Below are positions 42,098 to 47,431 of a stretch of DNA of 64,000 nucleotides, one piece after another. The notes below the pieces were generated by a model, which was not told the DNA's origin, ran no database searches, and saw nothing but the letters and a program-made list of their open reading frames with translations. How positions within the stretch are numbered: position 1 is the stretch's first letter; each line of letters begins with the position of its first letter. Position numbers and translations under genes: made by a program. The DNA comes from an uncultured Opitutia bacterium (GTDB lineage: Bacteria; Verrucomicrobiota; Verrucomicrobiia; Opitutales; Opitutaceae), in NCBI GenBank assembly GCA_903896015.1, contig CAITWF010000025.1:62001-126000 (forward strand), in the 5' to 3' direction.

Positions 42098-43091
42098 CGC
42101 GAGCGCCCAAAGTCTCGATCTCAGCCGCTGGCGCGAGGCGCCGCGGGGTATCGGCTATCGTCGGTGGAGCATCGTCGCAACCGGCCTGCGGCAGTTGCTG
42201 CGCACGCGCTTCTTCAAGTTTGTCCTCAGCGTGGCGTGGAGCGCGGGCCTGATGATCGCTGTGGCGGGATTTGTGTTCAGCCAGTCCGTCGCGGACGGCG
42301 GATGGCTGCAGGATATCGCGGTGCGGTTTGGGCCGCGGACCGAGGCACTGTTCAAGGTGCTGTCTGGGCTGGTCGCGATGTTTCCCGATGTCGTGGTGCA
42401 CGGCGTCTTCACGCTGATCTTTTGGGCGCACTCGTTTCTCGGCCTCTGGCTTAGCCTGCTGGTGCTGACCGTATTGGTGCCGCAGCTCATCACGCGTGAT
42501 CGCGGCAGCAACGCGCTCATCATGTATCTCGCGCGCCCGCTGACGACGGCGGACTATCTGCTCGGCAAACTCGGCATCATTGTGGGCGTCATCGGGCTCG
42601 TGTGGACGGGTCCGCTGCTCGCCGGCTGGCTCGTGAGCATGCTGTTCGCGACCGATCGCGATTTCATCGTCTACTCGTTCGCGCCGCTGCTGCGCGCGCT
42701 GGTTTTCAACGGCGTTTCCCTGGTCGCGCTCGCCGCGATTGCACTCGGCGTGTCGGCGCTCGGTCGCCACGAACGCACCACGACCGTGGTGTGGATGGGA
42801 TTGTGGCTGCTGCTGGGCATCATCGCGGCGCCGCCGCCCGCGCCGGATTGGTTCAAGCGCGCAAGCTTCACCCACGATCTCAGCGAGGTGCGGCAGGAGG
42901 TGTTCAAGCTCGACGCCGTGCTCACCGACGCGAGCGCCCAGCTCCCGCTGCTCGATCGGCGATTTGCGACCAATCTCGCGGCGGCTGGAAAAAAAGCCGA
43001 GCCGGCCGATTTCAACGGCGCGCTCGTGAGCCTCGGTGTTTTCGTGGTCGCGTCGTCATTTGTGTTTTTCCGCAAGCTTCGCCCCGAATGA
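42090..43091 (+). CDS. ABC transporter permease 1
   Basis: A 333-aa integral-membrane protein with about six helices, matching the ABC-2 permease type. Hydrophobic segments lie near 42-65, 115-145, 172-195, 205-235 and 310-326. A long soluble loop (about 255-300) precedes the last helix. It overlaps both flanking ATPase genes (8 bp and ATGA), so all are translationally coupled. Confidence 0.85.
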   Translation: MDNASAQSLDLSRWREAPRGIGYRRWSIVATGLRQLLRTRFFKFVLSVAWSAGLMIAVAGFVFSQSVADGGWLQDIAVRFGPRTEALFKVLSGLVAMFPDVVVHGVFTLIFWAHSFLGLWLSLLVLTVLVPQLITRDRGSNALIMYLARPLTTADYLLGKLGIIVGVIGLVWTGPLLAGWLVSMLFATDRDFIVYSFAPLLRALVFNGVSLVALAAIALGVSALGRHERTTTVVWMGLWLLLGIIAAPPPAPDWFKRASFTHDLSEVRQEVFKLDAVLTDASAQLPLLDRRFATNLAAAGKKAEPADFNGALVSLGVFVVASSFVFFRKLRPE

Positions 43092-44017: not shown

Positions 44018-44805
44018 GCTCAGCCACTGTCGAATCTTTTCTCCCGCCGCGTGTCGCGCCGAATCTCGCCCGCGCATGGGGTGGCCTCTGGCGGCTTACG
44101 TTTCGCCGGCTTCTTCTGCCCGGCCACTGGCTGCTGCTTGCGATCGGGCTGGCGGTGCTGACGGCGCTGTTCGCTGGCGGATCGCGGGCCGGCGGGTCGG
44201 ACCATTTCATCGATTGGACCACGAACTTTTACGTCACGTTTCTCGTGCCGGTGCTTTCATTCATGGCGGCGGGAGGCGTCATGCGCGACGAGATGAAATC
44301 AGGCACGGTCGACTACGTGCTAACCCGGCCCATCCCGAGACCTGCCGTTCTCGCCTTCAAATACGCCGCCCATGTGATTTGCACGCAGATCGATTTCCTC
44401 ATCGCGTTCGGCGTGGTGGTCGGATTCGCCGCAGCGCATGATGTGCCCGGCCTCGCCTCGGTCGCAGCCAAATTTTTCTTCGGCCAAGTGCTGATGATCA
44501 CGGCGTTCAGCGCGTTTGGTTTTCTCTGCGCCACGATCACTTCGCGTTACATTGTCATCGGCCTTGCCTACGGCGGCATTATCGAGGCGGGTGTCGGCCA
44601 GATTCCGACGCAACTCAGCCGGCTTTCGATGACGCACCAGATGCGCGAGCTGCTCGCCGTCTGGCTCGGGCGCGTCGAGGCGCACGCCGCTTCGCCGGGC
44701 GTGTGGAGCACGGCGGCGATCGTGCTGGCGTTCGTCGTGGTAGTGCTGACCGCGGCGGCGGTGATTTTCTCGCTGCGCGAACTCTCGGGTCCGGCCGACG
44801 CGTAA
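44014..44805 (+). CDS. ABC transporter permease 2
   Basis: A 263-aa ABC-2 type permease with about six helices (near 37-55, 75-95, 122-142, 152-175, 180-195 and 235-258). The loop DEMKSGTVDYVLTRPIPR is typical of ABC-2 permeases. It completes a two-ATPase, two-permease operon; export is likely from the ABC-2 type, but the substrate is unknown. Confidence 0.87.
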   Translation: MSSATVESFLPPRVAPNLARAWGGLWRLTFRRLLLPGHWLLLAIGLAVLTALFAGGSRAGGSDHFIDWTTNFYVTFLVPVLSFMAAGGVMRDEMKSGTVDYVLTRPIPRPAVLAFKYAAHVICTQIDFLIAFGVVVGFAAAHDVPGLASVAAKFFFGQVLMITAFSAFGFLCATITSRYIVIGLAYGGIIEAGVGQIPTQLSRLSMTHQMRELLAVWLGRVEAHAASPGVWSTAAIVLAFVVVVLTAAAVIFSLRELSGPADA

Positions 44806-44869: not shown

Positions 44870-46279
44870 ATGAAAAAACTTTTCCTCTCCCTTGCCGCGC
44901 TCGCGTTGCCGTTCGCTTCTCCCGCCGCCGTCGACCCCGCGATCGTTTCGGCCGACGCGCGCTGGCTCGTCCACGCCGATCTCAACGCTCTCCGCTCCGG
45001 TGCGCTCGGCAAGGAACTCATCGCGATCATTGAGACCACAAAAAGCGAATACGAGGCCACCCGACCCGCCAGCGACGGCAAGTTCGGCCTCGATGGACAA
45101 AAAATCCTCGCGACGATCGGCAGCGTCACCGCCTACGGCGTCAACATCTCCAAAGACCCCAAGGATATCGACGGCACGCTACTCGTGCAGGGCACGGCCG
45201 ATCTCCGGAAGATCGCCGAGAGCCTATTGATCCAAGCCAATCTCGCGCACCCGGCCGACGTGGTCGAAATCACTGATCTGCCCTTTCCGGCGTATGGCGT
45301 GAAGGGTCCGAAGTCCGGCAAAGGAGACCCGACCGAGGTGGTGATCGCGTTTCCGCCGGAGCCGGTGATCATCGTCAGCAAGTCGAAGCCGCAGATCCTC
45401 AAGGCGCGCGACGTGTTTCGCGGCGCGGCGCCGTCGCTCGCGAACAGCGCGGACTCGCCGCTCAAGAAATTCCTCAGCAGCTCCGATGGCACCTACGCGT
45501 TCGTCGCGAGCGCGGTGCCCGCGGAAAAATTCTTCCCGGACGACGGCCCGCAGGCCCGCGTGCTGAAGATGACGAGCGCCGGCGCGATCGCGCTCGGCGA
45601 GCGTGGCGCCAACACGTTTTTGCACGCCGACCTCGTCGCGAGCTCCGGCGCAATGGCGGACAAGCTGATGAAAATTCTCCAGGGCATGACCGCGATGATG
45701 TCGCTGGCCGAGACGAACGACAAACAACTCGCCGACTTCCTGAATTCCGCCACTGTCAACCGTGATGGCGACGTCGTCTCGCTCGATCTCTCCTACGCCA
45801 GTGTCCGGCTCGCGCAGATGGTCAAGAATCTCAAGACGCCGGCCTCATCGCCGGATCGCAACGCGCGGGCCGCAGTGCCGATGGTCAACGGCCGCGCGCT
45901 CGCCGAGTGGACGGCCGAGCCCGGTCCGGCGCCGACGGATGGCGGTCCGCTTCCGCTCACGACCCGTGCGATCGAAAACGTCGCCCTCAAAAACGGTGCG
46001 CTCCTCACGCTCGCCCGGCAAAACAACGGTGGCAAAAGCGTCCGCTTCGACCGCGTGGAGATTGTCGCGGCTGAGGGCGGCGCGCCGCTCGTGTTCCGCG
46101 CCGGCTACATGCGCGTCGCCGGCCCGCGCGGCAACTGGCAGCAGTTTGAGTTCCCCGGCGCCGAAGGCACTTACACCGTGAAAGTCGTCTACACGAACGA
46201 TCCCGACGGCAAGGCGACGTTTGCCGTAAGTGCGAAGGATCCGAAGACGCCCGCGCCCGACACCGAAGCGAAGAAGTAA
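44870..46279 (+). CDS. Secreted protein of unknown function
   Basis: A 469-aa protein with a clear signal peptide (KKLFLSLAALALPFASPAA). The N-terminal domain (about 20-310) looks like a globular domain with repeated beta-alpha segments (WLVHADLNALR, LLVQGTADLRKIAESL, VIIVSKSKPQILKARDVF); I do not recognise a catalytic motif. The C-terminal part (about 365-455) is beta-rich. It follows the ABC operon after 64 bp and sits just ahead of the sigma/anti-sigma pair, which may control or respond to it. Confidence 0.75.
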   Translation: MKKLFLSLAALALPFASPAAVDPAIVSADARWLVHADLNALRSGALGKELIAIIETTKSEYEATRPASDGKFGLDGQKILATIGSVTAYGVNISKDPKDIDGTLLVQGTADLRKIAESLLIQANLAHPADVVEITDLPFPAYGVKGPKSGKGDPTEVVIAFPPEPVIIVSKSKPQILKARDVFRGAAPSLANSADSPLKKFLSSSDGTYAFVASAVPAEKFFPDDGPQARVLKMTSAGAIALGERGANTFLHADLVASSGAMADKLMKILQGMTAMMSLAETNDKQLADFLNSATVNRDGDVVSLDLSYASVRLAQMVKNLKTPASSPDRNARAAVPMVNGRALAEWTAEPGPAPTDGGPLPLTTRAIENVALKNGALLTLARQNNGGKSVRFDRVEIVAAEGGAPLVFRAGYMRVAGPRGNWQQFEFPGAEGTYTVKVVYTNDPDGKATFAVSAKDPKTPAPDTEAKK

Positions 46280-46280
46280 A

Positions 46281-46868
46281 ATGATGACGCTTGCCCCCGA
46301 GTCGCGCGCCAACGAACCCGCGTCGGGTTCGTTGGCGGCGCTCGGCGACGAGGGGGCGCTGATCCGCGCGGCCGCAGGCGGCGACACCGGCGCCTTCGGA
46401 GAACTCGTCCACACGCATCATCGTCGCGTGTTTAATTTCCTCCGCCACATGACGCGGCACCACCAGGACGCCGAGGACCTCACGCAGCAGACCTTCATCA
46501 AGGCGTTTCACCACCTCGCGAGTTTCGATCTGCGGCGCCCGCTCCTCAACTGGCTCTTCACCATCGCCCGCAACACCGCGCTCAACCACTTCCGCGACGT
46601 GAAAAAATGAGACGAACTTGCGCACGAGCCCGCCGGAGCCGAACCCACGCCCGCGCGGCAGGCGGAGGATCGGGAGCAGTCCGATCATCTCTGGGCGCGC
46701 GCGAAGGAGCTGCTCTCGCCGCGGGAGTTTGAAGTGTTGTGGCTCCGTTTTGCCGAGGAACTTTCCACGCGCGAGACCGCGCAAGTCGTCGGTTTGACGG
46801 AGACGCACGTCAAAGTCGTCGTGTTCCGCGCGCGCCTAGTACTGATGAAAGGAGTGAAGCTCGTATGA
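46281..46868 (+). pseudogene. ECF RNA polymerase sigma factor interrupted by an in-frame TGA
   Basis: Codons 1-109 encode region sigma2 (FGELVHTHHRRVFNFLRHM, QDAEDLTQQTFIKAF, WLFTIARNTALNHF). A TGA at 46608-46610 then interrupts the frame. The same frame continues without a shift through a linker into region sigma4 (LWARAKELLSPREFEVLWLR, STRETAQVVGLTETHVKVVV, FRARLVL) and ends at a TGA whose ATGA overlaps the anti-sigma start. The stop lies in the linker, so one base change would restore a 195-aa sigma factor. It may be a recent nonsense mutation, a sequencing error, or a programmed readthrough; sequence alone cannot tell. No good start exists for sigma4 alone. Confidence 0.85.
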
Positions 46869-47431
46869 AAAAATTCCCGTCCGATTCCCCTCGATTCACC
46901 TGCCGCGTTGCGCGCGGCTGCTTCGCCCTCTTCGGCGACACCACGGGTGGCGCACCCCGCGGACCGGGCTCGGTTCACGCCGCCGCCTGCGCCGACTGCC
47001 ACGTTTATTTCTCCGCGTGCACCGAACTCGATGCCGCGCTCGCGCGGGGCGCCGTGCACGCGTGGCAGGAGGCGCCCTCGCGGCTGGAGCAGGACATCAT
47101 GCGGGCGGTCCGCCAGTCCGTGCCCGCGCCGCGCGAATCGCCCCGCACCGGGTTCGCCGTCGTCGGCATCGCGGCGGCGGTTCTGGCGATCGTGGTTTTT
47201 CAACGGCAGTTTTTTGTCACGCCACCGCCAGTTCCCACTGTGTCCGGGGCACTCGCGGGCGGAAGCGTTTCGCCGCAGCAACTTTGGACTTCGCTTCAGC
47301 CCTCGGCCAACGCCGTGATCGACGGCGACCCGTTGAACCAAGAGGTCGAGGCCGTCGTCGCCGACGCGCGCACCGCCGTGCAGTTTCTCGCGTTAAATTT
47401 TTTGCCGACGACAGCGGCTGACGGTGAATAA
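46865..47431 (+). CDS. Putative zinc-binding anti-sigma factor
   Basis: A 188-aa protein with an N-terminal H38-x3-C42-x2-C45 motif (HAAACADC), the core of the ZAS zinc-binding anti-sigma domain, and one transmembrane helix (about 97-112, FAVVGIAAAVLAIVVF). The C-terminal part is presumably periplasmic. Its ATG overlaps the stop of the sigma gene, so it is coupled to it: the standard ECF sigma/anti-sigma arrangement. It is convergent with the S9 peptidase gene. Confidence 0.75.
   Translation: MKKFPSDSPRFTCRVARGCFALFGDTTGGAPRGPGSVHAAACADCHVYFSACTELDAALARGAVHAWQEAPSRLEQDIMRAVRQSVPAPRESPRTGFAVVGIAAAVLAIVVFQRQFFVTPPPVPTVSGALAGGSVSPQQLWTSLQPSANAVIDGDPLNQEVEAVVADARTAVQFLALNFLPTTAADGE

Follow-up and report, generated by a model that had tools for sequence, protein, structure and literature searches.

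An in-frame TGA at a tryptophan codon of close relatives separates sigma2 from sigma4 in an ECF sigma factor gene of an uncultured Opitutaceae-like bacterium

The window, a 64,000-nucleotide stretch of DNA from an uncultured Opitutia bacterium, carries an ECF sigma factor gene on its forward strand (46281-46868) whose reading frame is open on either side of an in-frame TGA at 46608-46610. The sigma2 half begins at ATG 46281 and runs for 109 codons to position 46607, with a match to Pfam Sigma70_r2 (E 4.1e-19); the other half, from 46611 to 46865 on the same strand, holds the linker and sigma4, with a match to Sigma70_r4_2 (E 1.5e-9), and is followed by the normal stop of the sigma frame, also a TGA (46866-46868). 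Both matches exceed their curated Pfam cut-offs, in the separate halves as well as in the read-through frame, and the read-through protein has no other domains. In that protein, the Sigma70_r2 match ends at residue 107 and the Sigma70_r4_2 match begins at residue 140, leaving a linker of fewer than 50 residues with the TGA, as codon 110, at its start; read with the standard code, the gene therefore does not yield a single chain that contains both sigma2 and sigma4. A preliminary description of this DNA had drawn the same picture of two same-frame domains parted by a linker TGA, and the domain searches confirm it. Because the read-through frame matches its orthologs over nearly its whole length, with identities of up to 75%, the split frame is more than a chance arrangement. 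A structure model of the protein was poor (mean pLDDT of 49.8), and no conclusion is based on it.

The sigma4 half has no evident means of starting on its own. In agreement with the preliminary description, no ATG, GTG or TTG lies in frame within 40 codons 3′ of the TGA, and the first in-frame start, GTG 46734, falls inside the first part of sigma4; an ATG at 46607 overlaps the TGA, and it lies in another frame.

Immediately downstream, an intact putative anti-sigma gene (46865-47431, forward strand) begins at ATG 46865, so that its start overlaps the sigma stop in an ATGA, as had been described. This overlapping frame is conserved in three homologous loci, where it likewise carries HxxxCxxC. 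In the window, the protein contains an H38-x3-C42-x2-C45 motif, which we take to resemble the zinc-binding motif of anti-sigma factors, and whose H38, C42 and C45 are invariant in four homologs. Its match to the NCBIfam 'anti-sigma factor' family is weak (E 0.0022; 18 bits, where the cut-off is 100), and no Pfam family exceeds its cut-off in this protein. Just upstream of the sigma gene, a conserved gene on the same strand (44870-46279) encodes 469 residues with no Pfam or NCBIfam match at E 0.1, and is kept in three homologous loci. Overall, the gene order is two ABC ATPase genes, each followed by a gene that we take for a permease, then the 44870-46279 gene, the sigma gene and the putative anti-sigma gene. 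The same order is found at two homologous loci, L052 and L053, and also at L054 as far as that locus reaches; for the first ABC gene, the evidence at L052 and L053 is that the second ABC protein matches at both loci, and in the window it is a domain search. Between 44700 and 47600, there was no sigma-70-type promoter match.

The comparison with orthologs, which the preliminary description had proposed, found intact genes in the relatives. Among 57 genomes, the organism's own included, the read-through protein matches best, apart from its own genome, in G001 (same genus, 75% identity), G024, G007, G005 and G034, all of which have no stop and carry TGG at the position of the TGA. Across the 40 other orthologs examined, that codon is TGG in 22, including all 18 of the closest (at least 52% identity), and encodes Phe, Thr, Ile, Asn or Met in the remaining 18; none of the 40 has a stop at this exact codon, and the one stop nearby, in G227, occupies the preceding codon. 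The replaced codon was thus most plausibly a tryptophan codon, and not the TCA or CGA that had been offered as examples. In a search of 252 genomes of the family that scored at most 12 candidates per genome, 51, counting the organism's own (G000), gave a match with an E of at most 1e-24; 49 of these orthologs have no internal stop, with one each in G000 and G227. A contig scan, which may leave out the window's own species, found the loci of G001 and G024 and one further homologous locus, L054 (Verrucomicrobia), together with three distant loci. A TAA inside a sigma match on contig C89 of G001 was also considered as an interruption and rejected; it lies near the beginning of the match, upstream of the sigma2 part. 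No spare copy of the sigma gene was seen in the organism's own genome, where the best other matches are distant (E 4e-16 and weaker).

The second linker stop belongs to a distant ortholog from another genus (38% identity; locus L145, G227:C297:1248-1709, minus strand), where an in-frame TGA lies one codon upstream of the window's position. Five compared members of that genus have Arg, Gln, His, Lys and Lys there, and an in-frame ATG four codons 3′ of the G227 TGA could restart sigma4. Under a random distribution of stops over the codons accessible to them, the chance that a second stop lies no more than about one codon from the first would be 3-7%, and the chance that it lies in the linker 11-26%. 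Most simply, the G227 TGA is an independent event, and its nearness to the window's TGA is possibly due to chance, a curiosity and no evidence for a system. In an order-wide pattern search for linker TGA codons, only the organism's own genome, of 372, appeared among the matches listed; judged by reading, the G227 sequence would fit the pattern, yet it is absent among those matches.

The split appears isolated in the sampled part of its own genome. A hexamer model applied to 464 kb (the window plus 20 other stretches, each 20 kb long) found 59 stops with same-frame coding sequence on both sides. In 58 of them, an in-frame start follows within 40 codons, as expected for neighbouring genes, and the TGA at 46608 alone has none; the scan is blind to frameshifts and to lesions that happen to precede a start codon. 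Seven other splits whose first start is more than 20 codons away do not, by eye, resemble one gene cut in two. Moreover, across the whole genome, no stop was found inside any of 37 sigma4 or 70 ABC domain matches.

The decoding machinery that was found is of the ordinary kind. ARAGORN, run on 44 tRNA places, shows one tRNA-Trp with a CCA anticodon and no UCA anticodon, in a set that is incomplete (tRNA-Ile GAT was unseen, and the model specific to tRNA-Sec was left out). RF2 is present above its cut-off, and the genome has no match to the SelB domain, for which an E. coli control was positive. Together with the isolation of the split within 464 kb, these results lend no support to the genome-wide suppressor that had been raised as an alternative. 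The organism's tRNA-Trp has a G-U pair at 27-43 and keeps G24, the position at which the Hirsh change is reportedly to A24. In a comparison of 30 tRNA-Trp(CCA) loci (L151-L180), drawn from 37 genomes with a match, G-U pairs at both 27-43 and 10-25 occur in 20, the organism's own included; the other ten, three of which also belong to the family, have Watson-Crick pairs at 27-43. Carriers of the G-U pair at 27-43 are nearly all of the same family, and include G001, G024, G007, G005 and G014, whose sigma orthologs are free of stops. Further, RNA folding around and after the TGA resembles that of shuffled sequence (z of -0.75, +1.0 and +0.5), and the three Rfam matches near the stop are all far below their gathering scores. 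Frame shifting at an A6 run before the stop was also considered; it would be of no help, as the halves already share a frame.

Codon models in which the branch to G000 has an omega of its own point in most tests to purifying selection on sigma4 for most of that branch; silent sites are near saturation, and the LRT values are uncorrected for multiple testing. In particular, for four taxa analysed gene by gene, three trees give the sigma4 half an omega of 0.115, 0.116 and 0.107, near the background of 0.13, and all three reject neutrality (LRT of 16.7, 16.0 and 10.4); for sigma2, it is not rejected (LRT of 0.6-1.3). When the halves are fitted separately with six taxa, linker plus sigma4 gives an LRT against neutrality of 9.3 and sigma4 by itself one of 12.0, while the sigma2 omega is unstable at its upper bound (relaxation LRT of 6.9); for the whole gene, omega is 0.28 on the organism's own branch and neutrality is not rejected (LRT of 1.2). 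However, when branch lengths are shared between the halves, the sigma4 omega becomes 0.26, 0.27 and 0.40 on the three trees against a background of 0.09, with relaxation LRTs of 4.6, 5.7 and 5.3; two trees reject neutrality (LRT of 5.9 and 6.0) and the third does not (0.8). Under the same model, the sigma2 omega is 0.18-0.20, with LRTs against neutrality of 8.0, 8.6 and 1.5. Since most tests have sigma4 kept under selection along the lineage, the TGA would be either recent or a consensus error, whereas the signal of relaxation varies with model and tree. The earlier statement that any decay must be very recent accordingly holds for most tests, and is weakened by the joint model, where some relaxation appears and one of three trees retains neutrality.

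The neighbouring genes hint at a recent relaxation in the sigma/anti-sigma module, though not firmly. The anti-sigma gene has an omega of 0.34-0.40 against 0.11-0.13, with relaxation LRTs of 5.7, 5.7 and 2.5 on the three trees; such a raised value on the organism's own branch would fit loss of the switch, again not firmly. The upstream gene (44870-46279) has an omega of 0.18 against 0.10 (relaxation LRTs of 5.3, 5.4 and 2.9), the neighbour at 42108 is shifted the opposite way (0.05 against 0.09-0.10; LRT of 2.8-4.3), and omega is not significantly shifted in either the ATPase gene at 43088 or the one at 44026.

We consider that the TGA probably arose by a recent single-base change, which turned a conserved tryptophan codon of an otherwise intact sigma gene into an opal nonsense codon. 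The relatives are intact and the gene differs from them by one disabling change, as is expected of a pseudogene. Ribosomes would stop just past sigma2 and release a fragment of 109 residues, presumably inactive, that lacks the domain for contact with the -35 element. Translation of the anti-sigma gene would probably be lowered as well, as its start overlaps the sigma stop and coupling would be lost. Because of the truncation and the lost coupling, the sigma/anti-sigma switch is most likely off in cells that bear the TGA. Counting against this reading are the relaxation in the joint model, which would fit an older lesion (with one tree keeping neutrality), the whole-gene omega of 0.28 with neutrality retained, and the anti-sigma frame, which is still open. 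In addition, readthrough of the stop would predict purifying selection on sigma4 just as well. Overall, unless proteins prove to be made through the stop, we regard the finding as ordinary: it marks either a sigma/anti-sigma switch lately lost from a single Opitutaceae-like lineage, or a base to be corrected in one assembly.

The latter outcome would stem from an error in the consensus or in base calling, or from a variant of a minority strain in the assembly, with the organism's gene intact and tryptophan at the TGA site. It is consistent with the one-base difference between the TGA and the TGG of the closest relatives, with the openness of the rest of the gene, and with a genome assembled in 123 contigs. 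Substitution errors are rare in polished assemblies, and the 464 kb sample holds no other start-less same-frame split (frameshifts being outside that test), so that such errors are not common in this genome; we judge the base to be real with better than even confidence, and an error to be a good deal less probable, if still a serious contender. The least probable account is that UGA is recoded, as selenocysteine here or as tryptophan genome-wide. The TGA itself speaks for it and nothing beyond; the missing SelB match, the lack of a UCA anticodon among the 44 tRNA places examined, RF2 above its cut-off, the TGA that also ends the same gene, and the stop-free sigma4 and ABC domain matches all speak against it. 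Scarcely more credible are two separately translated halves that act together in the manner of SigO-RsoA: the cut does lie near the domain border, and SigO-RsoA shows that a two-part sigma factor can work (PMC8103513, in the portion available). The preliminary description had listed separate halves as an option and had doubted them for want of a start codon; they are indeed unlikely, because sigma4 has no usable one.

A leaky UGA, at which the near-cognate tRNA-Trp(CCA) inserts tryptophan and thereby supplies the ancestral sigma factor in small amounts, is improbable, although several features are compatible with it. As the site is tryptophan in the closest relatives, this tRNA would restore the ancestral residue; most tests suggest that the sigma4 half has been kept; and the organism's tRNA-Trp has a weak G-U pair at 27-43, where breaking the pair in E. 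coli raised UGA readthrough by about 2.5-fold under overexpression, as far as the available part of that source states (PMC13092985). Against it, the G-U is still a pair and is common to two thirds of the tRNA-Trp compared, including genomes with stop-free sigma genes, and G24 is kept. Moreover, all 40 other orthologs have a sense codon at the site, the only other ortholog stop is that of G227, one codon away, and neither RNA structure nor any other feature marks the site as programmed; a UGA-reading tRNA was not found in the incomplete set, nor was selenocysteine machinery. Its more elaborate version, a tolerated TGA that yields mostly free sigma2 and a trickle of ancestral sigma, so that leakiness sets the dose of the ECF switch, is more doubtful still. 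If it were true, the linker TGA and ATG of G227 would be a second solution to the same split, and readthrough would provide a bacterial sigma factor dosed by UGA leakiness.

A limited search of the literature on split or broken sigma factors, rpoS amber alleles, UGA readthrough and verrucomicrobial ECF factors recognised no identical case. Judging from the accessible portion of its source, the E. coli rpoS amber allele (Gln33 to amber) is the nearest example of a sigma gene with a single nonsense codon; it is also found in other isolates, some strains carry supE44, and a truncated, partly active protein is made from a downstream start (PMC2763269). There, the amber codon lies close to the N terminus, an internal start works, and activity remains through restart or suppression, whereas the present codon is opal, has no restart site and is accompanied by no suppressor tRNA that was found. 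SigO and RsoA similarly place sigma2 and sigma4 on separate polypeptides, according to the portion of that report available (PMC8103513), but they are two separate proteins, while here one ancestral gene has been divided and its sigma4 lacks a start. The E. coli tRNA-Trp 27-43 system shares, in the part of its description at hand, a UGA at a tryptophan site and a tRNA-Trp as its possible reader (PMC13092985); in contrast, the pair is kept here as G-U, in common with relatives whose sigma genes are intact.
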